Under the pieces are notes generated by a model. The model did no database searches. It saw only the letters and a program-made list of their open reading frames with translations, and was not told where the DNA came from. This document shows, in pieces, positions 1 through 27,942 of a DNA stretch of 34,407 nt (positions are counted from its first letter, which is position 1; each line of letters begins with the position of its first letter). The translations under genes were made by a program, and so were the position numbers. The DNA lies in contig DWXK01000065.1 in assembly GCA_019119205.1 (NCBI GenBank), positions 1 through 34,407 on the forward strand. Reading direction: 5' to 3'. The stretch is from Candidatus Mediterraneibacter intestinavium. GTDB taxonomy: Bacteria > Bacillota > Clostridia > Lachnospirales > Lachnospiraceae.

Positions 1-1811
1 CGCAGCGTATATCCGTAATCCTCCAGCAGTGCAAGCGTATTCGTATATTCCGGATACAGGTATAATTGCGATACATTGATTGGAAAACCGTTACTGAAAT
101 AGGAGTTCCCGGTGTTGTATGAAGGGCCGGTCTTATCTATAGTCTGTTCAGTCTGTTCCGGGTCAGGTATTTGAACAGAGAGTTCACCTATGGGAACAGA
201 GTTTATGAGCGTATCGGCGCTGACATTCAGGATATCTTTTTCATATGCTTCCAGAAGGGCGTTCCGCTGCTCTTTATCCAGTTTCATTTGATCCGGTATA
301 CCATAGATATCGGACAGAGCGATGGATATTACGGAGTTTTTATCAAGGTGGAAGTAAGGAAAGAGCTCTTTTCTGTAGTTCTGATTATCCAGCACCTCTT
401 CCAACGCGGCGGCAGCGTCTTCATATCTGACAGGATACTGCCTCGATACCACCCGTCCGCCTGAGAGTTTATAACGGAATAATGCGTTAATATAATCTGG
501 GTTATCCTGTGCATCGATACCGTTTTCCAGATTTTCGATTCCGGAGCGTGCCAGAGTATAGAGGACATCTGTCTCTTCTTTGGGAGCAAAATATCCAAGC
601 TCGGATTCGAAAGGATATTCAAGATCCGGATAACTAAAATAGTAGCTGAAAGAATCCGGCCGGAAACAGATGGCTTCCACCTTATCTTCGTTCGGTATAT
701 AGGTATCATAACCGAGAAGATCAAACCGGAAGATACACAGAACCGCCATGACGCCGGCAACCGCTATAAGGGAGGATTTCCAGCCTCTGAGGAGCTGTTT
801 CAGATCCAGGGTATATATGAATTCGATCACAGCGCAGAGGATGACAGCTGCCAGGAGACTCAGGAGAAAGATCCATCCGGTACCGTCGAGCAGCATGAGC
901 TTCTGGACCGCAAGGCTGACAAACAGTGCGGTCGGGATGCAGATCAGTACTTTCAGCACAGGAGCAACAGCAGGAAATGCAATGGAATTCCCTGCAGCCT
1001 CTGACGGGTAAATCCGGTAGAGGAGTACCGCACATATGATAAGCAGAGCGGATATAAGTATCGCCGCGGCAGCCGGACCGACATGGAGGCTGCCGGTGGC
1101 CCCCTCTGTGATCAGGGAACTGAACAATTCATAAGGTGAAAGGTAACTGGCAAGTTTCTGAGGCAGTGTGGAGCTCAGATCATAGCTGTAGTAACTCTTG
1201 AAAAAGGCCAGTTCCAGTGAAGAAGCCAGGGCAAATATCATGGTGGGATATACAATTACCGCCAGCGCTGCCAACAGTCCGGTGACAGTCCTTCCCGTTA
1301 CCATAACGGCGAAGACAGAAGCATTATAAATGATAAAAAACGCCAGGATGCCGCCAAGGGCGGCTACAGCAGAATATTGTGCAAGCCGGGCGGTCATAAG
1401 TCCGTTTACCGCGCCTGCTATTATAGTCAGTATACTGCAGATCATATATGGAACAAGAAAGATGATCAGTCCGGACAGGTAGGTTGTGGCAAACCATGTT
1501 GTGCGTTTTACAGGAAGAGAGTGGAAAAAGTCCAGCCTCTCTCTGGAGTGGATATAGCCGAAACCGGTCAGGGCGGTAAGAACGGCTAACACTGCAATCG
1601 CCCCGGCAAGAGAGCGCAGGTTATTCCCGTTTATTAGACCGGGAAAATAAGCGATAAGGTCTGATGCAGAATCTGTGTATGTACTTAGAAAGAGCATTGT
1701 ATAAACAGGCATAGCCAGAAAGAGAACAATGCTTGTCAATGCGAGAAGCCATCCTCTGTGTTTGATGTCCGCACGAATTAGTTTAATGTAAGAAATAGTC
1801 TTTGACGTCAT
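1..1811 (-). CDS. ABC transporter permease with large C-terminal extracytoplasmic region, 3' end cut by window edge
   Basis: The reverse strand stays open from an ATG at 1811 to base 1, giving 603 codons with no stop, so the gene is partial. The protein starts MTSKTISYIKLIRADIKHRG and has several hydrophobic segments: one at about residues 22-40, a series through the middle, and one near residue 350 just before a long hydrophilic tail. This fits a membrane-spanning export permease with an extracytoplasmic tail. The layout resembles Lachnospiraceae ABC permeases annotated with a DUF6449 tail; that family name is from memory. It overlaps the ATPase gene by 29 bp, so the two are very likely co-translated subunits of one transporter. 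The substrate is unknown. YtrA-regulated transporters often respond to cell-envelope stress, which is only a guess here. Confidence 0.85.
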   Translation of the reverse strand, partial: MTSKTISYIKLIRADIKHRGWLLALTSIVLFLAMPVYTMLFLSTYTDSASDLIAYFPGLINGNNLRSLAGAIAVLAVLTALTGFGYIHSRERLDFFHSLPVKRTTWFATTYLSGLIIFLVPYMICSILTIIAGAVNGLMTARLAQYSAVAALGGILAFFIIYNASVFAVMVTGRTVTGLLAALAVIVYPTMIFALASSLELAFFKSYYSYDLSSTLPQKLASYLSPYELFSSLITEGATGSLHVGPAAAAILISALLIICAVLLYRIYPSEAAGNSIAFPAVAPVLKVLICIPTALFVSLAVQKLMLLDGTGWIFLLSLLAAVILCAVIEFIYTLDLKQLLRGWKSSLIAVAGVMAVLCIFRFDLLGYDTYIPNEDKVEAICFRPDSFSYYFSYPDLEYPFESELGYFAPKEETDVLYTLARSGIENLENGIDAQDNPDYINALFRYKLSGGRVVSRQYPVRYEDAAAALEEVLDNQNYRKELFPYFHLDKNSVISIALSDIYGIPDQMKLDKEQRNALLEAYEKDILNVSADTLINSVPIGELSVQIPDPEQTEQTIDKTGPSYNTGNSYFSNGFPINVSQLYLYPEYTNTLALLEDYGYTL

Positions 1812-2688
1812 AACCGGCCACCTCCGTTTCACTGATAAATATTTCCTCGAGAGTAAGAGGCAGAACCTCGATAAACAAAGGGTTCTGCGCTTCTGCAATG
1901 CGCAGGACATCCAAGCGCTCTCCGCGGACTGTGAGAGTCAGCAAAGAACCGGTGCGTTCCAGCTTAACGACGCGCAGGTTTCTTAAAAGTTCCTGCTCGC
2001 GGTGAGCATCCTGAATCACACATTGAAGTTTACAGATATTACATTTGATCTGGTCAAGGTCCTGTGTGAGCAGCAGCTTTCCCTGATGGAGAAGCCCCAC
2101 ATTGTCGCAGATGTCTTCCAGTTCCCTGAGATTGTGGGAAGAGATCACGGGGGTAAAATCCCGGTTCATGATCTCGGCGGCGAACAGGCTTTTGACCGCC
2201 TGGCGCACTACAGGGTCAAGTCCGTCAAATGTCTCATCGCACAACAGATATTTCGTGCCGGCGCACAGACCAAGAAGGATTGACACCTGTTTTTTCATAC
2301 CTTTTGAGAAAGCGTTGATTCTGCGGTTGGTATCCAGATTAAAGATTTTGGTCAGAGAATCGAATTGCTTTCTGTTAAAGGCCGGGTAGACTGTCATATA
2401 GTAATCCCTCATTTCTTTCAGGTCTGCATTCTGAAAAAAGTAGGGAGAGTCAGATAAGAAACAAATCTGGGATTTTATATCCGGGTTTTCGAATACCGGG
2501 TCTCCATCTACAAGGAGTTCTCCGCTGTCAGGACGGATAATCCCGCTGATCATGCGAAGCAGTGTGCTTTTCCCCGCACCGTTTGATCCGATCAGACCGA
2601 ATACCATACCCTCGCGAATCGTGCCGGTTACATGATCTACAGCGTGTATATTGTGAAATGTCTTGTCAAGGTCTTTCAGTTCGATCAT
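1783..2688 (-). CDS. ABC transporter ATP-binding protein (YtrB-like)
   Basis: This 301-residue nucleotide-binding subunit powers the permease encoded just downstream. Visible motifs are Walker A GSNGAGKS at residues 34-41, a signature-like FSKGMKKQ, Walker B LLCDETFDGLD and an H-loop in SSHNL. The signature differs from canonical LSGGQ, as is common in YtrB and other export-type ATPases. A C-terminal extension of about 90 residues follows the core domain. The start codon overlaps the stop of the GntR gene (ATGA), and GGAGGATATCAG lies just ahead as ribosome binding site. The order regulator-ATPase-permease is typical of self-regulated GntR/YtrA transporter operons. The substrate cannot be read from the sequence. 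Confidence 0.93.
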   Translation of the reverse strand: MIELKDLDKTFHNIHAVDHVTGTIREGMVFGLIGSNGAGKSTLLRMISGIIRPDSGELLVDGDPVFENPDIKSQICFLSDSPYFFQNADLKEMRDYYMTVYPAFNRKQFDSLTKIFNLDTNRRINAFSKGMKKQVSILLGLCAGTKYLLCDETFDGLDPVVRQAVKSLFAAEIMNRDFTPVISSHNLRELEDICDNVGLLHQGKLLLTQDLDQIKCNICKLQCVIQDAHREQELLRNLRVVKLERTGSLLTLTVRGERLDVLRIAEAQNPLFIEVLPLTLEEIFISETEVAGYDVKDYFLH

Positions 2689-3059
2689 CTGATATCCTCC
2701 TCCTGATACAGTCCATCCAGGACTGTAATGTATTCTGAACGTGTAATTCCAAGTTCTTTGCCCTGCCTGAGAAGCTGACGGATCTCTTCCAGCAGGGAAT
2801 GTTTTTTATTTTCTGCAAGTTTTGCAGTGTCCGATACATAATTACCGCGTCCTCTGACCGGATAGATATAGCCTTGCTGTTCCAACAGTGCAAAGGCTTT
2901 CTGTATAGTGTTCGGATTGATGGAAAGCTCCACAGCGAGGGAGCGCACAGAGGGCATCTGGCTGCCCGGGGGCAGCGCTCCTCTCAGGATCAAAGCTTGG
3001 AAACGCTCTGCAATCTGCTCGTAAAGCGGCAGTTTGCTTTGATAGTCGATTGTGATCAT
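2685..3059 (-). CDS. GntR family transcriptional regulator, YtrA subfamily
   Basis: This 124-residue protein starts MITIDYQSKLPLYEQIAERF and carries an N-terminal winged helix-turn-helix, with PPGSQMPSVRSLAVELSINP and NTIQKAFALLEQQGYIYPVRGRG as the recognisable GntR core. It is too short for a ligand-binding domain and instead has a short C-terminal helical tail, as in the YtrA subfamily. A longer reading frame reaches 3146 but would start inside the promoter. The ATG at 3059 is preceded by AGAGGGATACT and matches where family members begin. It is first in the operon and lies next to a palindrome covering the probable transcription start, so it probably represses its own operon. Confidence 0.92.
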   Translation of the reverse strand: MITIDYQSKLPLYEQIAERFQALILRGALPPGSQMPSVRSLAVELSINPNTIQKAFALLEQQGYIYPVRGRGNYVSDTAKLAENKKHSLLEEIRQLLRQGKELGITRSEYITVLDGLYQEEDIR

Positions 3060-3092
3060 AGTATCCCTCTTCTTTTTATATAACTGTTTGAA

Positions 3093-3115
3093 GTGTACTA
3101 ATGCTAATAGTACAC
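3093..3115. promoter_or_regulatory. Probable GntR/YtrA operator
   Basis: A perfect inverted repeat, GTGTACTA, 7-base spacer, TAGTACAC, sits immediately downstream of the -10 of the reverse promoter, over the probable start of transcription. YtrA-type regulators bind palindromes with similar TGTAC/GTACA halves in their own promoters. That this GntR protein binds here is inferred from position and symmetry. Confidence 0.7.
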
Positions 3116-3117
3116 TT

Positions 3118-3146
3118 AACATACCATAGAAGATATGGAAAGTCAA
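3118..3146 (-). promoter_or_regulatory. Promoter of the GntR-ABC operon
   Basis: On the reverse strand, -35 TTGACT (3141-3146), a 17-bp spacer and -10 TATGTT (3118-3123) form a good sigma-A type promoter. The palindromic operator follows directly. Confidence 0.7.
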
Positions 3147-3173
3147 TATTGATGAAATTCGTTGATGTTTATC

Positions 3174-3202
3174 TTGTGAATCCGGAAGAATAGTGGTATG
3201 AT
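3174..3202 (+). promoter_or_regulatory. Promoter of the folate operon
   Basis: -35 TTGTGA (3174-3179), a 17-bp spacer and -10 TATGAT (3197-3202) lie about 75 bp ahead of the folC start codon. It is divergent from the GntR promoter. Confidence 0.6.
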
Positions 3203-3211
3203 GTACATCGT

Positions 3212-3238
3212 CGTAAAGGGTTAGAAGATCCCTTTACG
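3212..3238 (+). promoter_or_regulatory. 5' leader hairpin of the folate operon
   Basis: A perfect 9-bp stem (CGTAAAGGG / CCCTTTACG) with a 9-base loop lies at or within a few bases of the predicted 5' end of the fol transcript. No U-tract follows, so it is not a terminator. It could stabilise the 5' end or be a regulatory element. It lacks the size and layout of a tetrahydrofolate riboswitch. Confidence 0.5.
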
Positions 3239-3277
3239 AGGAAACACAAACAGAATACGGAAAGGAAACGAAAGAAC

Positions 3278-4663
3278 GTGACCTATAGAGAAGCAAGGGT
3301 ATATTTGGACGAGATGTCGAAATACGGAAGTGTACTTGGCTTGGAGACGATTCGAGGTCTGTTGCGTGAACTTGGGAATCCCCAGGATGACTTGAAGTTC
3401 ATACATATTGCAGGAACGAATGGCAAGGGATCTGTGCTTGCATACACTTCGACGATACTGAGTGAGGCAGGATACAGGACCGGGCGGTATGTTTCACCGA
3501 CAGTGGTTTCCTATCTGGAACGGATCCAGGTAGACGGAAGCTGGATCCCGGAAGAGAAATTTGCGGATCTGACAGAGAGAGTAAGAGATGCTATCGCCCG
3601 AATGGAAGCGGCAGGGGAACATTCGCCCACCGTGTTTGAAGCAGAAACGGCGATAGCGTTTTTATATTATAAGGAAATGAAGTGCGACTTTGTGGTCCTT
3701 GAAGCGGGGCTGGGCGGAGAACTGGACGCTACGAACATCGTAAAGAATACAGTATGCGCCGTCTTTACCAGCATCAGCCGGGATCATATCGGAGTGCTGG
3801 GAGACACACTGGAAGAGATCGCGGAAAATAAAGCGGGGATCATCAAGCCGGGCAGCGCGGTCGTCTCCGCAGTGCAGAAACCCGAAGTGACACAGATCCT
3901 CAAAGCGCGGGCAGCGCGGTACGGTCTGGAGCTTGCGCAGGCGGGATATGTTGACATCATCAAGGAAGATTTCCGGGGGGTTCGGTTTTCTTATAAAGAG
4001 TTCGGGGAACTTTACAGCCCTCTGGCAGGAAAGAGTCAGATCACAAATGCGGCGGCGGCGCTGGAGGTGATCCGGATGCTGAGGAGACTTGGCTGCAGGA
4101 TCAGTGCGGAAGCAGTGGAGAAGGGCATCGCCCACACTGTGTGGCAGGGAAGGTTTTCCTGCGTGATGGACCGCCCGGTGTTTCTCCTGGACGGAGCCCA
4201 CAATGAGGATGCAGCACTTCGGCTGCGGGAATCGGTAGAGGCCTATTTTCCGGAGAAGAAGCTGATCTGCATCATGGGCGTTTTTAAGGATAAAGAGTAT
4301 GAAAAGATCACAGATATCATGTGCCCCCTGGCCTCCTCCGTACATACGGTGAGCCTGCCGGACAGAAAACGGACTCTGCCGGCTTCGGAACTGGCACGGA
4401 CCGTTCGGGGCAGATGCCCGGAGATAAAAGTAAAAGAGGATGAGAGCGTGGAACAGGCTGTCCATGAAGCTCTGGAAGAAGCCGTCGAAGAGGATGTGAT
4501 CCTGGCGTTCGGCTCTCTGTCCTACCTGGAACAGGTGAAAGAAGCGCTGGACAGAGAAACGGCAGAATGGGAAGAGAAGGAACGGATGAATGCAGGACCG
4601 GATCCCGAGCCATCGGGTCGGGGACTGGAAATGCAGCAACAGAAAAGAGGGATACGAAAATGA
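3278..4663 (+). CDS. folC: Bifunctional folylpolyglutamate synthase / dihydrofolate synthase
   Basis: This 461-residue cytoplasmic Mur-ligase-type enzyme adds glutamate to dihydropteroate and to folates using ATP. The ATP-binding loop is [11 protein letters not shown] at about residues 42-52, followed by a typical FolC core: [28 protein letters not shown], the Mur-ligase [20 protein letters not shown] segment and [10 protein letters not shown]. The start is GTG at 3278 with AAGGAAA a little upstream. It is longer than the usual roughly 430 residues because of a charged tail after residue 430. The stop overlaps the folE start (ATGA), so it leads a folate biosynthesis operon. Confidence 0.95.
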
Positions 4664-6643: not shown

Positions 6644-7465
6644 ATGGGGCTGGATGAGATCAGGATCGAGGATCTGGAAGTGTTTGCAAATCATGGTGTC
6701 TTTCCCGAGGAAAATGTGCTCGGGCAGAAATTTCTGGTGACAGCAGTGCTTTATACGGACACAAGGAAGGCTGGGAAGACGGATGACCTTACCGCTTCCA
6801 TCCATTATGGAGAGGTGAGCGCATTTATAGAGCGTTATCTGCGGGAGCATACTTTTCAGCTCCTTGAGAGGGCGGCAGAGAGTCTTGCGGAGAAGATGCT
6901 CCTTTCCTATCCTCTGCTCAGAAAAGTCAGGCTTACGATCAAGAAGCCCTGGGCTCCGGTAAAACTCCCGCTGAAGACGGTGGGCGTGACCATCGAGCGG
7001 GGGTGGCACACGGCATACATCGCTCTGGGATCTAATATGGGAGACCGGAAAGCATATCTGGATCAGGCGGTGAAAGCACTGGATGACAGGGCGGATTCCC
7101 GTGTGGAGAAGGTGTCCGGATTTATCGAGACGCCGCCTTACGGTGTGACCGATCAGGCAGATTTCCTCAACGGGTGCCTGAAGTTAAAGACTCTTCTGTA
7201 TCCGGGAGAACTTCTGGAAGAACTGGGCCGGATCGAAAAGGATGCCGGACGGGAACGTATCATACACTGGGGACCAAGGACGCTGGATTTGGACATCATC
7301 TTTTACGATGATCTGGTCTGGGAGGAAGACGAGCTGTGCATCCCCCACGTGGAAATGCATAAGAGAAGGTTTGTGCTGGAACCGCTCTCGGAGATCGCGC
7401 CGTATAAGAGACATCCGGTGTATGGAAAAACAGTGAAGGAGATGCTCGCGGAGCTGGCGGAGTGA
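6644..7465 (+). CDS. folK: Fused dihydroneopterin aldolase / HPPK
   Basis: This is a bifunctional FolB-FolK fusion of 273 residues. Residues 1-118 are dihydroneopterin aldolase (ANHGVFPEE with Glu22, and LTIKKPWAPVKLPL with the catalytic Lys at 100/101), which makes 6-hydroxymethyldihydropterin. Residues 123-273 are 6-hydroxymethyldihydropterin pyrophosphokinase (YIALGSNMGDR, then WGPRTLDLDIIFYDD), which activates it for FolP. The ATG at 6644 has GAGGTG nine bases upstream; a GTG at 6581 would add 21 unlikely residues. The fusion lets two consecutive reactions occur on one chain. The last codons lie inside the outer arm of a long palindrome. Confidence 0.95.
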   Translation: MGLDEIRIEDLEVFANHGVFPEENVLGQKFLVTAVLYTDTRKAGKTDDLTASIHYGEVSAFIERYLREHTFQLLERAAESLAEKMLLSYPLLRKVRLTIKKPWAPVKLPLKTVGVTIERGWHTAYIALGSNMGDRKAYLDQAVKALDDRADSRVEKVSGFIETPPYGVTDQADFLNGCLKLKTLLYPGELLEELGRIEKDAGRERIIHWGPRTLDLDIIFYDDLVWEEDELCIPHVEMHKRRFVLEPLSEIAPYKRHPVYGKTVKEMLAELAE

Positions 7466-7635
7466 GGGGGACCACCGTCCGCCTAAGAGGTGTGCTGTCT
7501 GCGGGCACGCTCCCGCTCGGAAAACAATGCAGCGGACACGTAAGAGCGCAAAGGACGCGCTCTAAGTGCCGGCATTGTTTTAACGGCCCTTAGACAGCAC
7601 ACCTTTTAGGCTGGGCTGTTCCCTCACTCCGGCAG
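7454..7635. repeat. Palindromic element R1, copy A
   Basis: A 182-bp nested imperfect palindrome. The outer arms are 7454-7468 and 7621-7635 (14 of 15 pair). Next are 7481-7500 with 7591-7610 (19 of 20 pair, the odd one a G-U), then AAAACAATGC (7521-7530) with GCATTGTTTT. The tip is AGAGCGC, loop AAAGGAC, GCGCTCT (7543-7563). The core 7529-7573 is identical to copy B over 45 bases. The left arm includes the folK stop codon. Function unknown: it could be a structured RNA, a 3'-end element or a non-autonomous mobile palindrome. Confidence 0.85.
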
Positions 7636-7650
7636 TTCGCGGGGCAGTCC

Positions 7651-7686
7651 GGGAGGACGCGCCCGGAGGGCGCTGCTCCCTGGGGA
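7651..7686 (+). repeat. Short palindrome R2, copy A
   Basis: Hairpin GGGAG ... GCGCCC, 3-base loop, GGGCGC ... CTCCC followed by TGGG. Near-identical units occur at 27815-27849 (same strand) and 13226-13259 (opposite strand), each near an R1 copy. Confidence 0.75.
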
Positions 7687-7688
7687 GG

Positions 7689-7718
7689 GGATGCGTGGCC
7701 CCTGCGGGGCGCGCATCC
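7689..7718. repeat. Small GC-rich hairpin
   Basis: GGATGCG pairs with CGCATCC around an inner GCCCC / GGGGC stem with a 3-base loop. No copies of it were noticed elsewhere in the window. It lies between R2 and the next long palindrome. Confidence 0.45.
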
Positions 7719-7731
7719 ATGGAAAGAGAGT

Positions 7732-7942
7732 GGGAGAGGGGGTGGGGCGTGGCAGGTGACTTTGGAGGAATCCCTGGAAATAGTTGGAGCTCTGGGCTCT
7801 GGCGTTAAACATTACAATGGCGCTTGTTTGAGGCGAAGACGAGTTGTGCCATTGTAATGTTTGTTTTTAGCCAGAGAACAGAGCTCCTAGTATTTCCGGG
7901 ATTCTGGAACGGAACCTGAAACGTCCCGCGCCCTCTCTCCCC
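7732..7942. repeat. Long palindrome R3
   Basis: A 211-bp imperfect palindrome with a core different from R1. A perfect 15-bp inner stem (AAACATTACAATGGC at 7807-7821 with its complement at 7848-7862) encloses 26 bases. Further out, 7768-7800 pairs imperfectly with 7871-7904, and the G-rich left end pairs with the C-rich right end. It fills most of the gap between the convergent fol and aroA transcripts. Confidence 0.7.
7807..7868 (+). terminator. Terminator-like core of R3
   Basis: On the plus strand the 15-bp perfect stem is followed at once by GTTTTT, as in an intrinsic terminator. It would end readthrough from the folate operon. The 26-base loop is longer than usual. Confidence 0.5.
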
Positions 7943-8025
7943 AAATACGTCTTGAAAGTATTCTCCTTCCGCGGTTTTCGGATGGCGGTTTTCGGACGCT
8001 GACCTTATCAGTCCCGGAAGGTTTC

Positions 8026-9318
8026 TCACAGCAGCAGTTCGAAGGTGTCGTAGAAATCGGGATAGGATACTTCGATGCACTTGCTGTCCAGGATCTTTGT
8101 GTTTCCTTCTGCGATCAGTGCTGCGATGCTGAACGCCATGGCGATGCGGTGGTCCAGGAGTGTGTGGATGGACGCGCCCTTGAGCGGTGTCCCTCCGGTG
8201 ATGATCATGCCGTCGTCAGTGGGGGTGACTTTACAGCCCATGGCTTTCAGGTTGTCTGTCACCGTCTCGATACGGTCGGTCTCCTTGACCTTCAGTTCTG
8301 CGGCGTCTTTTATGACGGTAGTCCCCTCTGCAGCGGCAGCCATGACCGCGATGATCGGGATCTCGTCGATCAGTGTGGGGATGATGTCCCCCTCGATCCG
8401 GATGCCGTGGAGACGGCTGGTGCGGACGAGGATGTCGGCGATCTTCTCCCCACCCTCGGTGCGCTCGTTGAGCAGTGTGATGTCTCCTCCCATATCCTCG
8501 CATACTTTGAGTATCCCGGCGCGGGTGGTATTGATGCCGACACCTTCGATCAGGATCTCGGAATCCGGTACGAGCAGTCCTGCTGCGATAAAGTAGGCAG
8601 CAGAAGAGATATCGCCGGGTACGGTGAGTTTCTGTCCGTACAGCTCTCTCCCGGGACGGATGGAAGCCGTTGCCCTGGTGCTGCCGATCTCAAAGGTGGA
8701 GCGGATATCTGCGCCGAATTCCCGGAGCATGAGTTCCGTGTGGTTTCGGGAGAGAGTGGGCTCTGTGACAGAAGTTTCTCCCTCGGCGTAGAGTCCGGCG
8801 AGAAGGAGACAGGATTTTACCTGGGCGGATGCGACAGGTGAATCGTAATGGATCCCGTGGAGTTTCCCCGGGGTGATATAGAGCGGGGCACAGCCGTTGC
8901 GCAGGATGCTGGATACATTTGCGCCCATTTGGGTGAGCGGAGCTATGATCCGCTTCATGGGTCTTGAGTTCAGGGATTCATCTCCGGAGAGCTTGGAGTC
9001 AAAGGGCTGACCTGCAAGGATGCCGGAGAGCAGCCGGGTCGTGGTGCCGCTGTTCCCCACGTCCAGGATGTGGTCAGGGGCAGAGAGCCCGTTGAGCCCT
9101 TTCCCGTGTACGATAACGGTGTCCCCCTTTTCTTTTATATCGATTCCCATGGTGCGGAAACAGCGGATCGTTGCAAGACAGTCCGCACCATTCAGAAAAT
9201 GACGGATCTCGGTAGTACCTTTCGCGATGGAGCCGAACATGACGCTCCGGTGGGAGATGGACTTATCTCCCGGTACGCTGACTTTTCCCCTTAATCCGGT
9301 GATGCTGCATAATTCCAT
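8026..9318 (-). CDS. aroA: 3-phosphoshikimate 1-carboxyvinyltransferase (EPSP synthase)
   Basis: This 430-residue enzyme transfers enolpyruvate from PEP to shikimate-3-phosphate, the sixth shikimate-pathway step and the glyphosate target. Motifs seen are VPGDKSISHR (residues 15-24), LDVGNSGTTTRLLSG, GDESLNSRPMKRI and KVKETDRI. The length is normal. AAGGACATGTTACA precedes the ATG. It lies 75 bp downstream of tyrA on the same strand, so the two are probably co-transcribed for aromatic amino acid synthesis. No clear U-tract terminator follows; the palindrome cluster at 7454-7942 lies beyond. Confidence 0.96.
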   Translation of the reverse strand: MELCSITGLRGKVSVPGDKSISHRSVMFGSIAKGTTEIRHFLNGADCLATIRCFRTMGIDIKEKGDTVIVHGKGLNGLSAPDHILDVGNSGTTTRLLSGILAGQPFDSKLSGDESLNSRPMKRIIAPLTQMGANVSSILRNGCAPLYITPGKLHGIHYDSPVASAQVKSCLLLAGLYAEGETSVTEPTLSRNHTELMLREFGADIRSTFEIGSTRATASIRPGRELYGQKLTVPGDISSAAYFIAAGLLVPDSEILIEGVGINTTRAGILKVCEDMGGDITLLNERTEGGEKIADILVRTSRLHGIRIEGDIIPTLIDEIPIIAVMAAAAEGTTVIKDAAELKVKETDRIETVTDNLKAMGCKVTPTDDGMIITGGTPLKGASIHTLLDHRIAMAFSIAALIAEGNTKILDSKCIEVSYPDFYDTFELLL

Positions 9319-9393
9319 TGTAACATGTCCTTCTTTCTCGTGTTTTTACGTGCCCCAGAGACATGCGCTTCATGCGGATATGAAACGCGGTCA

Positions 9394-10491
9394 TTATACC
9401 TCATATACGATATAATGGTATTTCTGTAACAGGGCTGTGGCCTTGGAAGAGGAAGCCTCATCATAAAACTCGATGCGGAGTACGCCTTCCTCAAACTCTC
9501 TGTTGTGTATGATGCCGATATTTTTGATATTGATGTTATTGCTGGCGAGGATGGTGGCGATGGTCGCGATCCCGCCCGCTTCGTCGATGATGTCGCAGTA
9601 CAGTGCGAACTGTTTCTTGATCGGTCCCGCAGAACTGCCCGGCATGGAATCCCGGTAGTCTTTTGAGGATTCGAACATGGAGTAGAGCGCCGGTTCATCT
9701 CCGGAGTCGACCAGGGACTTTGCATGCTCCAGAGCGTTGATATATTCTCCCAGGATGCGGGAGATGTTCTTCCCGTTCTTCAGGCAGATCTGCTGCCACA
9801 TGACAGGTGATGATGATGCGATCCTGGTGATGTCCTTAAACCCGCCCGCAGCCAGCGCTTTCATCAGTTCGTCCGCAGAGTCCGTGTCATGGACAAAATT
9901 CACAAGGGTGGAGGCGATGATGTGCGGAAGGTGGCTGATCGTCCCGGTGATATTGTCATGCTCTTTATAGTCAAGGACGATGGGAAGCGCCTTCAGGGAC
10001 GCGATGAAATCCCGGTATGCCGTTACCTTTTCCTCCGCCACTTTTTCGGTTGGGGTGAGGATATAGTAGGCATTTTCGATCAGATGCGCTTTCGCGTTGG
10101 AAAAACCACTTTTTTCCGAACCGGTCATGGGGTGTCCGCCGATAAAATTTTCCTCCATCCCGAGAGTGATGATCTCCTCATGGATGGAAGTCTTGACGCT
10201 CCCCACATCGGTGAGGATACAGTCTTCGTCCACAAGTTCCTTAAGCTGCGCCAGATAGGCGGTATTATAGGAAACCGGAGCGCACAGGAAGATGTACGAA
10301 CATCCTCTGAAGTTGTCGTCTATGGAGGAACAGGATGTGTGGATCGTCCCCTCCTGGATGGCAAGGGCAAGTGTCTCCCGGTTTTTATCAAAGGCAAGTA
10401 TCTCATAGTCCGGGTAATAACGGCGGACCGCCTTTGCGATGGAGCCTCCGATCAGCCCGAGCCCGATAAATCCTATTTTTACTGAAGCCAT
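9394..10491 (-). CDS. tyrA: Prephenate dehydrogenase with C-terminal ACT domain
   Basis: This 365-residue enzyme oxidatively decarboxylates prephenate to 4-hydroxyphenylpyruvate with NAD(P), committing flux to tyrosine. The N-terminal nucleotide-binding motif is GFIGLGLIGGSIAKA (residues 7-21), and HPMTGSEKSGF is the conserved substrate region. Residues from about 295 (FALYCDIIDEAGGIATIATI) form an ACT domain, usually a feedback sensor for tyrosine. The frame is open far upstream, but the ATG at 10491 (MASVKIGF) has AAAGGAA upstream and is where homologues begin. It is first gene of the tyrA-aroA unit. Confidence 0.95.
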   Translation of the reverse strand: MASVKIGFIGLGLIGGSIAKAVRRYYPDYEILAFDKNRETLALAIQEGTIHTSCSSIDDNFRGCSYIFLCAPVSYNTAYLAQLKELVDEDCILTDVGSVKTSIHEEIITLGMEENFIGGHPMTGSEKSGFSNAKAHLIENAYYILTPTEKVAEEKVTAYRDFIASLKALPIVLDYKEHDNITGTISHLPHIIASTLVNFVHDTDSADELMKALAAGGFKDITRIASSSPVMWQQICLKNGKNISRILGEYINALEHAKSLVDSGDEPALYSMFESSKDYRDSMPGSSAGPIKKQFALYCDIIDEAGGIATIATILASNNINIKNIGIIHNREFEEGVLRIEFYDEASSSKATALLQKYHYIVYEV

Positions 10492-10526
10492 AGCTGAATT
10501 CCTTTCACTGTCATAATGTCCGTATA

Positions 10527-10590
10527 GCGCCGCGGACCTCCTCGGGCACGGCTGCCCGGGGTGAGACTGCTGTGTGGGCAGATGCGGCGC
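10527..10590 (-). promoter_or_regulatory. Structured leader upstream of tyrA
   Basis: The reverse-strand leader can fold with an outer GCGCCGC / GCGGCGC stem (10584-10590 with 10527-10533) enclosing a 6-bp CGGGCA / TGCCCG hairpin with a 4-base loop. It lies between the predicted transcription start near 10594 and the tyrA ribosome binding site. No terminator or clear T-box consensus was found. A regulatory role is only suggested. Confidence 0.4.
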
Positions 10591-10600
10591 ACACAGAGAT

Positions 10601-10629
10601 ATTTTAACACTTTGCACTGTAAAAGTAAA
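10601..10629 (-). promoter_or_regulatory. Promoter of tyrA-aroA
   Basis: Reverse-strand -35 TTTACT (10624-10629), 17-bp spacer, -10 TAAAAT (10601-10606). It leaves a leader of about 100 bases before tyrA. Confidence 0.6.
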
Positions 10630-10663
10630 CAACTTCTGGATATGTGAAAAATGAATAAAATAG

Positions 10664-10692
10664 TTGTATTTATCGAGAAGTTTTAGTACAAT
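10664..10692 (+). promoter_or_regulatory. Promoter of the EF-G-like gene
   Basis: -35 TTGTAT (10664-10669), 17-bp spacer, -10 TACAAT (10687-10692). It leaves a leader of about 110 bases before the start codon. Confidence 0.6.
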
Positions 10693-10809
10693 ATATCCAT
10701 AGCGTGCATATCCGTGAAAGATCATGATCCACACCTGGTCCGGAAAAGAGGCGTGAACTATGATAATGAAGAGAGAATATGCACAATAACTATACAAGGA
10801 GGCAGCAGC

Positions 10810-12885
10810 ATGAAGGTTTACAGAACAGACGAAATTAGGAACGTGGTCCTGCTCGGACACGGCGGAAGCGGCAAGACGAGTCTTGTCGAGGCGATGCTGT
10901 ATGTATCAGGGGCTACAAACCGTATGGGGAAAGTCTCAGAGTCCAATACGGTGAGCGATTTTGATAAAGAGGAGCAGAAACGCGGATTTTCGATCAGCAC
11001 GAGCCTGATCCCAATCGAGTGGGAGAAAGCGAAGATCAATATACTGGATACACCGGGTTATTTTGATTTTGTCGGAGAAGTGGAAGAAGCAGTGAGCGCG
11101 GCGGACGCGGCGGTCATCGTAGTGTCCGGAAAAGCAGGCGTGCAGGTGGGAACAGAGAAGGCATGGGAACTCTGTGACAAATACAATCTTCCGAGAATGG
11201 TATATGTGACAGAGATGGACGTAGACGATGCAAGTTTCCGTCAGGTGGTCGAGGATCTGACAGCGAGATACGGAAAGAAGATCGCGCCTCATTTCCAGCC
11301 GATCCGTGAAAATGAAAAACTGGTCGGGTATATCAACGTCATCAAGAATGCAGGGCGCAGATATACAGGGATCGGCCAGAGAGAAGAGTGCGAGATCCCG
11401 GATTACTGTAAACCGAACCTGGAGATCCTGAGGGATTCTCTTATGGAAGCTGTGGCAGAGACCAGCGAGGAATTTATGGAGCGTTACTTCAACGGTGAGG
11501 AGTTCTCCATCGAAGAGATCCGCGCTGCGATGCGTACCGAGGTTATGGACGGGGATATCGTCCCGGTGGCGATGGGATCCAATATCCAGGCACAGGGCGT
11601 TGCAAACCTCCTGTCTGATATCGTGAGATTCTTCCCGAGCCCGGACAAGAGGACCTGCGCGGGGATCAACCGCACGACGAATGACATCTTTGAGGCAAAC
11701 TACGAGTTCTCAAAGGCAAAGAGCGCTTATGTGTTCAAGACCATGGTGGATCCGTTCATCGGAAAATATTCCTTTGTCAAAGTATGCTCAGGCGTTCTTA
11801 AAGGTGACGACGTTCTTTATAACGCGGATACAGAATCCGAGGAAAAACCGGGCAAGCTGTATACCATGTGCGGAAACAAACCGTCAGAGGTCTCTGAACT
11901 GTTCGCGGGAGATATCGGCGCCATCGCAAAACTTGCCAATACCCGTACAGGAGATACGCTGTCCACAAAAGCGACCCAGGTCAGCTATGCAAAGACAGAC
12001 TATTCTGTTCCGTATACATATATGAAGTATACTGTAAATAAGAAAGGCGACGAGGATAAGGTGTCTCAGGCACTCTCAAGGATGACTGCGGAGGATGTGA
12101 CACTGAAAGTCGTAAATGACAGCGAGAACAGGCAGACGCTCCTGTATGGTATGGGAGATCAGCATCTCGAGATCACAGCGAGCAAGCTGGCGGCAAGATA
12201 TAAGGTAGAGATCACGCTGAGTACACCGAAGGTTGCATTCCGCGAGACGATCCGCAAGAACTCCGATGTGGATATGAAATATAAGAAACAGACCGGCGGG
12301 CATGGACAGTACGGACATGTCAAGATGAAATTTGAGCCGTCGGGAGACCTTGAGACTCCTTATATATTTGAGGAGTGCGTTGTGGGCGGCGCGGTTCCGA
12401 AGAACTACTTCCCGGCAGTGGAAAAAGGACTTCAGGAATCAGTTGTGAAAGGACCTCTTGCGGGATATCCGGTAGTCGGCGTGAAGGCGACGCTGTATGA
12501 CGGATCCTACCATCCGGTAGATTCCTCAGAGATGGCGTTCAAGACGGCGACAAGCCAGGCGTTCAAGAAAGGCTTCATGGAAGCTTCTCCGGTACTCCTT
12601 GAGCCCATTGCTTCTCTCAAAGTCACGGTTCCGGACGACTACACCGGAGATGTCATGGGAGACCTCAACAAGAGACGCGGACGCGTGCTCGGCATGAACC
12701 CGATCGCTGGCGGAAAACAGGTGATCGAGGCAGATATCCCGATGACCGGTCTCTTCGGATACTGTACGACCCTGCGCTCCATGACAGGCGGACGCGGTAC
12801 CTATGAGTATACATTTGCACGCTATGAGCAGGCTCCGTCCGATGTCCAGGAGAAGGAGATTGCTGCGAGAGCGGAGGATAATTAG
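10810..12885 (+). CDS. Elongation factor G-like translational GTPase (EF-G paralogue)
   Basis: This 691-residue protein has the full EF-G length and domain order: G domain, domain II, III, IV (the KKQTGGHGQYGHVKMKFEP segment) and V. The P-loop is GHGGSGKT (16-23), not the AHIDAGKT of housekeeping EF-G, and switch I contains KRGFSIST in place of RGITI. G3 is DTPG (80-83). The G4 motif, normally NKxD for guanine recognition, reads TEMD at 134-137. This places it among EF-G-like paralogues rather than fusA itself; its cellular role is not settled. The start chosen has AGGAGG 7 bases upstream; an upstream in-frame start at 10714 lacks one. The stop lies inside the left arm of palindrome R1 copy B. 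Confidence 0.9.
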   Translation: MKVYRTDEIRNVVLLGHGGSGKTSLVEAMLYVSGATNRMGKVSESNTVSDFDKEEQKRGFSISTSLIPIEWEKAKINILDTPGYFDFVGEVEEAVSAADAAVIVVSGKAGVQVGTEKAWELCDKYNLPRMVYVTEMDVDDASFRQVVEDLTARYGKKIAPHFQPIRENEKLVGYINVIKNAGRRYTGIGQREECEIPDYCKPNLEILRDSLMEAVAETSEEFMERYFNGEEFSIEEIRAAMRTEVMDGDIVPVAMGSNIQAQGVANLLSDIVRFFPSPDKRTCAGINRTTNDIFEANYEFSKAKSAYVFKTMVDPFIGKYSFVKVCSGVLKGDDVLYNADTESEEKPGKLYTMCGNKPSEVSELFAGDIGAIAKLANTRTGDTLSTKATQVSYAKTDYSVPYTYMKYTVNKKGDEDKVSQALSRMTAEDVTLKVVNDSENRQTLLYGMGDQHLEITASKLAARYKVEITLSTPKVAFRETIRKNSDVDMKYKKQTGGHGQYGHVKMKFEPSGDLETPYIFEECVVGGAVPKNYFPAVEKGLQESVVKGPLAGYPVVGVKATLYDGSYHPVDSSEMAFKTATSQAFKKGFMEASPVLLEPIASLKVTVPDDYTGDVMGDLNKRRGRVLGMNPIAGGKQVIEADIPMTGLFGYCTTLRSMTGGRGTYEYTFARYEQAPSDVQEKEIAARAEDN

Positions 12886-13080
12886 AATATTGGGGGAGCG
12901 GTGGGGACGTCCGCCGGATATATGTACTGATCTCAGGCGCGCTTTCGCTTGGAGAACAGCGCAGCGGACACGTAAGAGCGCAAAGGACGCGCTCTAAGTG
13001 CCGGCGCTGTTCTACAGCCTTCGATCAGCACATACATCCGGCTGGGCCAACCCCACTCCCCGGCAATTTCTGGAATTATA
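12878..13080. repeat. Palindromic element R1, copy B
   Basis: A nested imperfect palindrome of about 203 bp. The outermost arms contain ATAATT and G-rich/C-rich tracts (12891-12905 with 13051-13062). Middle arms 12913-12932 pair with 13023-13042 (two mismatches). Inner arms are GAACAGCGC (12954-12962) and GCGCTGTTC (13004-13012), and the tip is AGAGCGC / GCGCTCT with loop AAAGGAC. Bases 12961-13005 match copy A exactly. The left arm includes the stop codon of the EF-G-like gene. Confidence 0.85.
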
Positions 13081-13225: not shown

Positions 13226-13259
13226 CCCAGGGAGCAGCGCCCAAAGGGCGCGACCTCCC
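13226..13259 (-). repeat. Short palindrome R2, copy B (inverted)
   Basis: On the reverse strand it reads GGGAGGTCGCGCCC, TTT, GGGCGCTGCTCCCTGGG, matching the R2 units at 7651-7686 and 27815-27849. The loop triplet varies among copies (GGA, TTT, GGT) while the stem is kept. Confidence 0.75.
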
Positions 13260-13331: not shown

Positions 13332-13377
13332 CGCCGGGGATACATCCCCCTCCGGCGGAAACATATCATCCCCGGCG
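13332..13377. repeat. Inverted repeat in GC-rich intergenic DNA
   Basis: CGCCGGGGAT (13332-13341) and ATCCCCGGCG (13368-13377) pair perfectly over 10 bp around 26 bases. I see no gene in 13081-13464; the one long open frame there runs through these palindromes. Confidence 0.45.
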
Positions 13378-25807: not shown

Positions 25808-26524
25808 ATGCTCAGGATCGGGAACTGTGATGACGAAAGGGCGTCGGCGGAGAAGCTGTATCTGACTTTGGAGCCGCTTCTCGGGGAGGACGAAGAGATC
25901 ATCTATGAGTTTTCAAATGGAGTGAGCGCTGCAAACTGGCTGGAGAAGCATCCCGGGGAGATGGAACTGCTTTTCCTTGACGTGGAGATGGAGCCGGTGG
26001 ACGGCATCCGGACTGCAGAGCGGATCCGGACCTTTGACCGGGACATCGTTCTTGTCTTTGTAACAGGGCACGAAGAGTTCGCCCTGCACGGATACCGGGT
26101 GAACGCGTCGGACTATGTGATCAAGCCGGCAAAAAGAGAACGGCTGGCAGAACTGCTGGATCGGGTAAGGCGAGAAATGGAGACCAGGAGCGGAGCGCTG
26201 TTTGCATTCAAAAGCCCGGACGGAATCTGCCAGATCCCATATAACAGGATCCGGTATTTTTACAGTGAGAGGCGGCTGGTCCATGTGGTCTGCGGGGAGG
26301 AGGACATCCCTTTCTACGGAAAGCTGAATGATCTGGAGAAAGAGCTCCCCCGCAGGTTCGTGCGGATCCACAACCGGTATATCGTGAATGCGGACTGGGT
26401 AGAACGTGTAAATGGAAATAAGGTCATTACAGAGGGAAGGGAGCTGCCGGTCAGCCGTTCCATGAAACAGGAAGCGGTATCTGCGCTGGCGCGGATGATC
26501 CTGGAAAAGAGGAAAGGGGGATGA
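25808..26524 (+). CDS. LytTR family response regulator
   Basis: This 238-residue regulator has a receiver domain (1-120) with acidic pocket Asp8/Asp9, phospho-acceptor Asp58 (LLFLDVEMEPVDG), Thr86 and Lys107. A C-terminal LytTR DNA-binding domain follows from about 135 (RIRYFYSERRLVHVV; RFVRIHNRYIVNADWVERV). It resembles AgrA/ComE-type regulators of peptide signalling and bacteriocin genes. AGGAGGGGAAAAT precedes the start. The stop overlaps the kinase start by 4 bases. Its phosphodonor kinase appears damaged, so it may now be controlled otherwise or be inactive. Confidence 0.95.
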   Translation: MLRIGNCDDERASAEKLYLTLEPLLGEDEEIIYEFSNGVSAANWLEKHPGEMELLFLDVEMEPVDGIRTAERIRTFDRDIVLVFVTGHEEFALHGYRVNASDYVIKPAKRERLAELLDRVRREMETRSGALFAFKSPDGICQIPYNRIRYFYSERRLVHVVCGEEDIPFYGKLNDLEKELPRRFVRIHNRYIVNADWVERVNGNKVITEGRELPVSRSMKQEAVSALARMILEKRKGG

Positions 26525-27942
26525 GAGCGGTGGATTTCAGTCTGCTCCCGAGAAACCTGGAATTGGGAATCTGGCCGGGTGTTCTGTTTACGATCAAGAT
26601 CATAATGGGAAGTCTGCCATTCCTGTTCCTGAAAAAACTGATCCAGATCCGAAAAAGTAAAATGCGAATGGTGATGTTGTTCCTCTTGTGCGAGATACTG
26701 ATGTGGCTCCCCTGCTACGTAGGAGACATCACGAATCTTCCGCTGATGTTTCTGGCGTTTGCAGCGGCGGTGTTTTTCTGCTGTGAGGGGACGCCCCGGC
26801 AGAAACTGGCGGCAGCGGTGCTGACCGCCGGACCGGCTTTTTCTGTCAATGTCCTGACAGACAATTATTTTCTTGAATTTAATTTGACGATTAACGGAAT
26901 GAGGAGCGTGCCTCTGCCCGGGTACTGGGAGATCAGGCTGGGATACTGGGCGGTGATGTGCCTGCTGGCGCGAAAGCTTCTTGCGGGACAAAGGCAGGAG
27001 CTTCCCGGAAAATTCTGGAATCTGCTCATCCTGCTCTCGGCGCCGGTGTTCGGGATGCTGGGGGCTCTCGTGATATTTTCGGATCAGGAGATCGGGAATG
27101 CATGGCGGGATATCAGCATTTCCGCTCTGTGTATGCTGTACTGGATCGGGATGATCCTGACCGTACACGTGCTGGGAAGGCAGCAGGAACTGGAACGGAA
27201 GGAACATTTTTATCAGATGAGGCAGCAGTATTATAATGCCATGGAGCGGCAGCAGAAGGAAGTCCGGCGTCTGCGCCATGATATGAAAAATCATCTGACT
27301 GCCCTGTCCGGTCTTTCCGGGGAGGCAGAAAAGGCTTATCTGACGGAACTTCTGAACGCTCCGGCGCTTTCCCCGGGGAGGACATACTGTGAGAACAGGA
27401 CGGCCATCGTGGTGCTCAGCGCGAAGGCAGATCAGGCTCTGGAACAGGAGACGGAGTTTGAAGTGCATGCGATGATCCCGGAATCCATTCCGGTGGATCC
27501 CATGGATCTGTGTTCCCTTCTGGGAAATGTGCTGGACAACGCACTGGAAGCAGCGGCAAGGATGCCCAGAGAGCAGAGACGTGTTTCTTTTTCGGCAGGA
27601 GTGGAAAAAGGACTCCTTCTATCTGCCGGTGTGAGGAGAGGGCGTCCGCCGGAGGGCATATGTTGCCTTCGGACCCGCTCTCGCTCGGAAAACAACGCAG
27701 CGGTACATAGGCGCCCAAAGGGCGGGCGCCAAGTGCCGGCGTTGTTTTACGGTCCTCAGGCAGTATATGCCTTCCGGCTGGGCTTTCTCCTGTGCGGCGG
27801 ATGGAAGAACGGACGGGAGGGGCGCGCCCGGTGGGCGCTGCTCCCTGGGAGACGATATGGGGAGGTGGAAAAAGTGTTGGGGCGATGCTCCCTGGGAGAT
27901 GATAGCGGGAACTTTATTCTTGAGTTTGCGGGGGAAGAGTGA
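26521..27942 (+). CDS. GHKL sensor histidine kinase with ATPase domain disrupted by repeat R1
   Basis: This 473-residue frame starts as a normal AgrC-like kinase. There are about six membrane segments in residues 15-220, a coiled linker, the H-box RRLRHDMKNHLTAL with His253, and the N-box LLGNVLDNALEAA (residues 333-345). After about residue 366 the sequence stops resembling a kinase. There is no glycine-rich G-box, and the remaining roughly 108 residues are read through palindromes R1 copy C and R2 copy C, giving an Arg/Gly-rich tail. The element appears to have replaced the end of the gene, so ATP binding and autophosphorylation are probably lost. The frame is open by chance. It overlaps the regulator gene by 4 bases. 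Confidence 0.85.
   Translation: MRAVDFSLLPRNLELGIWPGVLFTIKIIMGSLPFLFLKKLIQIRKSKMRMVMLFLLCEILMWLPCYVGDITNLPLMFLAFAAAVFFCCEGTPRQKLAAAVLTAGPAFSVNVLTDNYFLEFNLTINGMRSVPLPGYWEIRLGYWAVMCLLARKLLAGQRQELPGKFWNLLILLSAPVFGMLGALVIFSDQEIGNAWRDISISALCMLYWIGMILTVHVLGRQQELERKEHFYQMRQQYYNAMERQQKEVRRLRHDMKNHLTALSGLSGEAEKAYLTELLNAPALSPGRTYCENRTAIVVLSAKADQALEQETEFEVHAMIPESIPVDPMDLCSLLGNVLDNALEAAARMPREQRRVSFSAGVEKGLLLSAGVRRGRPPEGICCLRTRSRSENNAAVHRRPKGGRQVPALFYGPQAVYAFRLGFLLCGGWKNGREGRARWALLPGRRYGEVEKVLGRCSLGDDSGNFILEFAGEE
27615..27810. repeat. Palindromic element R1, copy C, inside the kinase gene
   Basis: Arms 27625-27640 and 27785-27798 pair partly. Middle arms 27648-27668 pair with 27757-27777 (three wobble pairs). 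AAAACAACGC (27689-27698) pairs with GCGTTGTTTT. The tip is GGCGCCC, AAAGGGC, GGGCGCC (27710-27730). Compared with copies A and B the stem bases differ on both sides together, so pairing is kept. The unpaired flank CGCTCTCGCTCGG also recurs in similar form. It replaces the 3' part of the kinase coding region. Confidence 0.85.
27815..27849 (+). repeat. Short palindrome R2, copy C
   Basis: GGGAGGGGCGCGCCC, GGT, GGGCGCTGCTCCCTGGG. Same unit as 7651-7686. It follows R1 copy C by about 5 bp. Confidence 0.75.
27840..27904 (+). repeat. Direct repeat from the R2 right half
   Basis: GCTCCCTGGGAGACGATA (27840-27857) is repeated with one change at 27887-27904. It looks like a partial duplication at the distal edge of the inserted element. 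Confidence 0.6.

Follow-up and report, generated by a model that had tools for sequence, protein, structure and literature searches.

R1, a family of long palindromic repeats at gene ends in Lachnospiraceae, with covarying arms that may be matched mainly at the DNA level

R1 is a long palindromic element found in three copies (A, B and C) in a 34,407-nt stretch of Candidatus Mediterraneibacter intestinavium (GenBank assembly GCA_019119205.1, contig DWXK01000065.1), hereafter called the window. On balance, we lean towards regarding R1 as a family of palindromic DNA repeats of Lachnospiraceae, similar to REP/REPIN elements but outsized, which are copied in trans and whose arms are matched mainly at the DNA level. 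A preliminary description, made from the letters of the window, had suggested that R1 may be a non-coding RNA, a mobile palindrome moved by a host enzyme, or both; of this reading, the mobile palindrome and a covariation exceeding that of a decaying palindrome have stood, and RNA selection on the arms has not. The copies and their conserved parts are as follows.

7454 to 7635, plus strand: R1 copy A, a nested hairpin (folding z-score -10.2; covariance-model score 185.1 bits)
7508 to 7520, plus strand: side mini-hairpin of copy A, CGCTCCCGCTCGG (2 bp, loop UYNC; part of the three-way junction)
7529 to 7573, plus strand: conserved tip of copy A (45 nt, same as in B)
12878 to 13080, plus strand: R1 copy B (folding z-score -6.7; covariance-model score 180 bits)
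12940 to 12952, plus strand: side mini-hairpin of copy B, CGCTTTCGCTTGG
12961 to 13005, plus strand: conserved tip of copy B (45 nt, same as in A)
27615 to 27810, plus strand: R1 copy C (folding z-score -7.2; covariance-model score 167.7 bits; used in the comparison with the relative G007)
27676 to 27688, plus strand: side mini-hairpin of copy C, CGCTCTCGCTCGG
27697 to 27740, plus strand: conserved tip of copy C (44 nt; compensated stem GGCGCCC/GGGCGCC)

The three nested hairpins were confirmed at the places first proposed for them, both by folding, where none of 200 shuffles folded equally well, and by cmsearch with a covariance model built from these same copies (spans 7462–7629, 12894–13060 and 27629–27796). 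The 45-base tip was indeed identical in A and B, and the stem AGAGCGC/GCGCTCT is replaced in C by the compensated pair listed above, with the loop AAAGGRC kept, as had been described. The recurring unpaired blocks, CGCTYNCGCTYGG and GGCTGGGC, are present in all three copies. The middle arms had been called unrelated, a statement that has to be corrected for A and B, which are only diverged (80% identical over 107 nt, ungapped).

For the wider comparison, a regular expression for the tip, which sets the allowed letters by position and not by pairing, gave 174 distinct copies in the collected loci; the 169 with sufficient flank fell into 94 clusters at 80% identity, and 89 copies (94 minus 5 of unusual core length) made up the covariation set. 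The core hairpin measures ~165 nt and is often longer (about 165–230 nt). Its core is a three-way junction (alignment A5) formed by an outer stem, a side hairpin (CGCTYNCGCTC; 2 bp, loop of four bases) and an inner stem comprising a bulged AG, a tip stem and an A-rich 7-base loop. Conservation is strongest in the asymmetric tip, which is kept across genera. The arms diverge from copy to copy and remain for the most part Watson–Crick paired. Under a hand-written structure, 92.7% of the paired cells in the 89 copies can pair, and double changes occur at 28 of the 31 stem pairs; the two pairs of the side hairpin changed on both sides in 9 and 5 of the 89 sequences, counts that do not represent independent events, since the sequences are related. 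The covariation score reached 0.507 vs. 0.184 for shuffled alignments and 0.07–0.12 for slid structures, with the outer pairs scoring lower because some rows are one base off at the 3′ end. Hence, the comparison with a decaying palindrome, called for in the preliminary description, placed R1 far above both controls, and simple decay was ruled out.

Covariation is the usual sign of a functional RNA, yet here the wobble pattern expected of RNA is largely missing, so the DNA-versus-RNA origin of covariation becomes testable. Arms selected as RNA should tolerate G:U mismatches but not A:C mismatches. In the arms outside the tip core (~50 aligned positions on average), aligned with an equal penalty for every mismatch type, the 94 cluster representatives displayed 182 G:U and 161 A:C mismatches (p = 0.28), and isolated mismatches, with pairs on both sides, numbered 67 and 78, respectively. 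T-box leaders of Lachnospiraceae (8 sequences, counted from model alignments) gave 39 G:U vs. 8 A:C, i.e., about 5:1, and the difference from R1 was pronounced (67:78 vs. 39:8, Fisher p = 8e-6); this speaks against selection of the arms as RNA. The T-box alignments (8/10) were used in place of a tRNA wobble control with 3 usable tRNAs. Similar near-parity of G:U and A:C was recorded at sites behind a sense gene (55 and 64), at sites preceded by an antisense gene (25 and 27) and in 22 copies from other genera (23 and 29). Thus, of the features expected from a structured RNA, R1 possesses a covarying conserved structure, and the preference for G:U over A:C is absent from the arms of its cluster representatives. 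The earlier argument that paired changes with fixed loops are what RNA selection produces is accordingly unsupported for the arms, including those at sense sites, with one unclustered subset leaning the opposite way (see below). One nearly perfect arm of ~65 bp (L264) looks as if recently formed or corrected.

The expectation of more copies in related genomes was borne out. The R1 covariance model (length 167, 63 pairs), built from the three copies of the window only and yielding rough E-values, was run on G000, the genome to which the window belongs (104 contigs, 2.6 Mb in all, completeness 81.6%). Of its 37 matches there, 9 are the same palindromes read from the opposite strand, leaving 28 distinct copies. 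R1 was present in 25 of 37 Mediterraneibacter genomes (own genome included) and in at least 88 of 299 genomes sampled across Lachnospiraceae, a lower bound obtained with strict filters and at most 9 candidates scored per genome. Eisenbergiella, also of the Lachnospiraceae, carries R1 as well. R1 was found in none of the 24 genomes from other families of the same order, and the 6 positives among 245 genomes sampled class-wide all belong to Lachnospiraceae, so neither sample contained R1 outside this family. R1 thus occurs in about 30% of the sampled members of a major group of gut bacteria. One further match (L105, 73.5 bits) comes from a metagenome-assembled genome (MAG) titled only 'uncultured Eubacteriales', and one locus (L188, G170:C21) harbors tandem R1 copies with a period of ~187 nt, 98–99% alike.

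Several candidate identities and origins were discarded. Nothing in Rfam matched R1 at gathering scores in the window, 11 loci of the genus and 20 additional loci, of which 19 belong to other genera; for Rfam at least, the preliminary description was thus right in recognising no named family. Only one of the 11 genus loci, all with R1 in the leader of ileS, contains a T-box at the gathering score (L017), and the possibility that R1 is a misidentified T-box was dismissed. The literature searched, supplementary motif lists (e.g., of PMC8040213) aside, offered no recognised description of R1. An origin from phage or plasmid was rejected, copy A being without a blastn match. Two strict-pattern matches in viral contigs and pattern matches in Labrenzia, an Actinomycetota MAG and a Treponema MAG fail the covariance model and, therefore, look like chance.

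Near-identical copies at unrelated sites suggest that R1 is mobile. In the genome G020, seven copies are 94–98% alike over 211–250 nt within unrelated flanks, four of them being 95–98% alike over 472–688 nt. Each of the seven has a sense stop codon 4–5 nt ahead of a common CGGATTT; in six, the cassette extends to within 8 nt of the stop codon of a convergent gene, and no convergent gene was found at the cassette end of the seventh (L177). G029 has dispersed copies of a different R1 subfamily, which are less strictly positioned and have mosaic right ends. Presence and absence at matched sites were also documented: the locus of copy B contains R1 in G000, G007 and G029, and six relatives without R1 display a 95–149 nt gap between the matched flanks. 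Both rnfB and apbE were found in 19 of 30 loci compared; the spacer between them measures 555 nt (G000) and 548 nt (G007) with an R1 pair, 738 nt in G004 with another palindromic cassette, and 0–282 nt in the remaining 16 loci. By eye, losses between two close species are seen as well: the hairpin of L032 is missing in G007, where a single copy remains of the 7-bp sequence flanking it in G000; other sequence stands in place of the hairpin at L037; half-hairpin deletions are present at L033 and L040. Dispersed copies and presence or absence in relatives thus support the proposal of a palindromic mobile element; no mobilising enzyme was found.

Other insertions and cassettes were encountered at these sites. 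In G007 (L226, G007:C211, about 1787–3394), the two R1 of locus B are separated by an inserted gene which, by eye, encodes a transposase-like protein of 535 aa. Directly 3′ of a stop codon, palindromic cassettes that start with ATTCnnnTTT (ATCCC in G019) were observed in G020 (L172–L178), where they occupy the whole space between convergent genes, and in the rnfB 3′ regions of five genomes (G002, G004, G019, G031 and G032); no R1 motif was seen in the rnfB cassette stretches viewed outside G020.

The change of individual hairpins over time was followed in 23 alignments of orthologous copies from G000 and G007. One-sided changes resulted in G:U 41 times, in A:C 56 times and in other mismatches 85 times, and both-sided changes left 38 Watson–Crick and 9 non-pairing positions. 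Without five spoiled alignments (L031, L032, L033, L037 and L040), where the G007 hairpin is missing, half-deleted or misplaced, the respective counts are 28, 41 and 40 for one-sided changes, and 35 and 3 for both-sided ones. Since 30 of these 35 compensated changes fall in four hairpins, compensation proceeds in bursts. At 3 of 19 orthologous loci (those of B, C and L043), the G007 hairpin is closer to a paralogue than to its orthologue.

The position of R1 relative to genes is also distinctive, starting with the window, where all three copies lie directly 3′ of a stop codon. Copy A follows a folB-folK fusion gene (Pfam FolB + HPPK), the stop TGA of which (7463–7465) sits within the outer stem; copy B follows an EF-G-like gene (10714–12885, stop TAG; Pfam); copy C follows the ancestral stop TGA (27632–27634) of a GHKL histidine kinase gene. 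In G007 this kinase ends in FFYLPV and a stop immediately 5′ of the hairpin (by eye). The window kinase (26521–27942) bears an internal deletion of ~180 nt relative to G007 (by eye), so its frame continues through the copy C hairpin.

Across 138 contexts, with genes taken as long, unannotated open reading frames (a call overlapping the hairpin in 29 contexts), a sense gene lies upstream in 98 and none in 40; a sense stop lies within 100 nt 5′ of the core in 77, and an antisense stop within 100 nt 3′ of it in 13. Among 78 cluster representatives, a sense stop before the core was recorded in 43 and an antisense stop after it in 8; the tandem-gene bias alone (27 vs. 16, p = 0.13) is not significant. 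At 15 of 44 loci, arm pairing extends into the stop codon or the end of the coding sequence, compared with 6 of 129 controls in which partners were swapped. For G000, six convergent R1 pairs were examined, several of which have a terminator-like hairpin between the members (by eye). R1 thereby marks gene ends at many genome sites, which bears on how convergent genes are kept separate.

In the leader of ileS, inherited inverted R1 pairs or one member of such a pair are observed (L046/L049, L013, L015, L016, L019 and others); where read, this R1 is preceded by a T-box-like terminator and followed by the start codon (by eye).

The natural candidate for a mobilising enzyme was RAYT/TnpA_REP. In the genus, there is a weak association: R1 is present in 18 of 22 genomes with a RAYT-like gene (sorted by frame length) vs. 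7 of 15 others (p = 0.036). This gene is mostly single-copy in the genus, with two copies in G014, G029 and G030. Its product is ~255–300 aa long (L290, L292–L311; Y1_Tnp in one scanned), and the gene adjoins a glyS-like gene in 18 of 21 loci and transketolase-like genes in three (names by eye). No R1 core was seen near it in the 21 loci viewed, and, with no family-wide association either (see below), RAYT was rejected as the mover. IS200-type Y1 genes were likewise set aside as unrelated to R1 copy number (by eye).

Comparison with known repeats places R1 near REP sequences. REP, REPIN and BIME elements (GTAG and CGTC families) are dispersed palindromes of 20–40 bp, many per genome, with an unpaired GTAG or CGTC tag; they lie beside gene 3′ ends in convergent and tandem arrangements, form inverted dimers and sometimes supply the stop codon (PMC3733652). 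R1 resembles them in its many extragenic copies, sometimes arranged as inverted doublets (28 copies and six convergent pairs in G000), and in its location at gene 3′ ends (77/138 behind a sense stop). Unlike them, it is about 165–230 nt long with a three-way-junction tip, lacks a general GTAG or CGTC tag at the foot (CGTC is present in A, B and C but mostly predicted to be paired, and is missing from other copies, by eye), shows no family-wide link to RAYT and is confined to Lachnospiraceae in the samples. Since R1 works like REP/REPIN but fails in size, tag and RAYT link, it is considered a variant and not a member of REP. Another relevant case is MRSC-65-2, one of the 'mobile/repeat sequence candidates', which occurs dozens of times in a genome and has a long stem that covaries; its authors noted that the structure may matter as DNA (PMC11109978). 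The published description is of one long stem bearing a UYCCGG repeat, in diverse phyla (PMC11109978); set against that description, R1 differs in its three-way-junction tip and in having been encountered in one family only. Finally, template-switch correction of quasipalindromes homogenises the arms of inverted repeats in yeast and E. coli (PMC8604942). A DNA process of this kind could yield the paired changes of R1 without RNA selection, but the description there is of a mutation process rather than of a way to maintain a repeat family (PMC8604942).

Under the REP/REPIN-like reading, R1 would be copied rarely and in trans by a putative host enzyme recognising the extruded hairpin, or a single strand, through its tip. 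The arms would be kept matched mainly at the DNA level by template-switch correction between them, and occasional replacement by another R1 copy could have the same effect, with selection for a hairpin probably acting alongside. When transcribed in the 3′ region of an mRNA, R1 may also protect the end of the message or curb read-through, roles that have been suggested for REPs. A number of observations weigh against this reading. No arm-correction event was observed. The G007 hairpin is nearest to its own orthologue at 16 of 19 loci, and all 17 ileS-leader copies (11 species) have as best match, among 61 compared, a same-orientation ileS copy of a different species; hence, most sites are inherited. 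RAYT and R1 are unassociated family-wide (R1 in 14 of 53 genomes with RAYT and in 74 of 246 without it, p = 0.74). Target duplication is inconsistent, with one 7-bp direct repeat (L032) and none clear in G020 or G029. The T-box control comprises 8 sequences, and its counts come from model alignments rather than from the arm alignment applied to R1. The sense bias also fits an RNA role, and 59 unclustered copies (first 57 loci) lean towards G:U (160 vs. 113 A:C). Moreover, two core columns vary by one-sided wobble in a manner fitting RNA (G:U 24, A:C 1; G:U 31, A:C 0); with outer and closing pairs excluded owing to the row shift, they account for 55 of the 69 G:U and 1 of the 33 A:C mismatches in the core, leaving 14 and 32.

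These last points bring up the alternative that R1 acts in mRNA 3′ regions as a structured RNA, e.g., by binding a protein or protecting 3′ ends, and is maintained by selection for its RNA fold, its spread being secondary. This alternative, which we regard as doubtful, would account for the sense bias after stops, the conserved unpaired nucleotides of the tip, the covarying side hairpin, the old inherited sites in the ileS leader, the two core columns with G:U only and the lean of the unclustered subset. It is at odds with the near-equality of G:U and A:C in the arms of cluster representatives, sense sites included, against the T-box ratio, with the 40 of 138 contexts lacking a sense gene upstream and with the near-identical dispersed copies. 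A different and tentative conclusion, in our estimate rather unlikely, is that R1 represents a class of hairpin-borne mobile elements, in which an enzyme would read the single strand folded into the three-way-junction tip and copy the hairpin to gene ends, the hairpin intermediate rewriting the arms. Covariation would then stem from the copying mechanism instead of RNA selection, and the copying in one lineage would be precisely stop-to-stop between convergent genes.

An ordinary transposon offers a further explanation, namely a non-autonomous element resembling a miniature inverted-repeat transposable element and moved by a DDE transposase, with the palindromes as its inverted ends and the stop-to-stop cassettes of G020 as whole elements. 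The G020 cassettes of ~350–700 nt with matching ends, AATTCCGGATTTATC ... GATAAATCCGGAATT, and the existence of inverted R1 pairs speak for it; however, target duplication is inconsistent (by eye), conservation peaks at the tip, and the element ends, constant within G020, differ between lineages. We regard this explanation as improbable. As for decaying or chance palindromes, i.e., ordinary terminators with no special history, R1 does share with terminators its location at gene ends. Still, the covariation far above both controls, the tip conserved across genera and the unlike appearance of the simple terminators that relatives have at these loci leave this explanation scarcely credible.

Further features of the window adjoin the R1 copies, including a fourth, inverted R1 remnant and copies of a second short hairpin repeat, R2:

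13333 to 13376, minus strand: R1 remnant, inverted, which would pair up with copy B
7651 to 7680, plus strand: R2, 3′ of copy A
13230 to 13259, minus strand: R2, inverted, downstream of copy B
27815 to 27845, plus strand: R2 after copy C, with a partial second R2 at 27880–27898

The ortholog of the remnant in G007 is an intact hairpin. Tandem R2 copies were also observed after R1 at L040.

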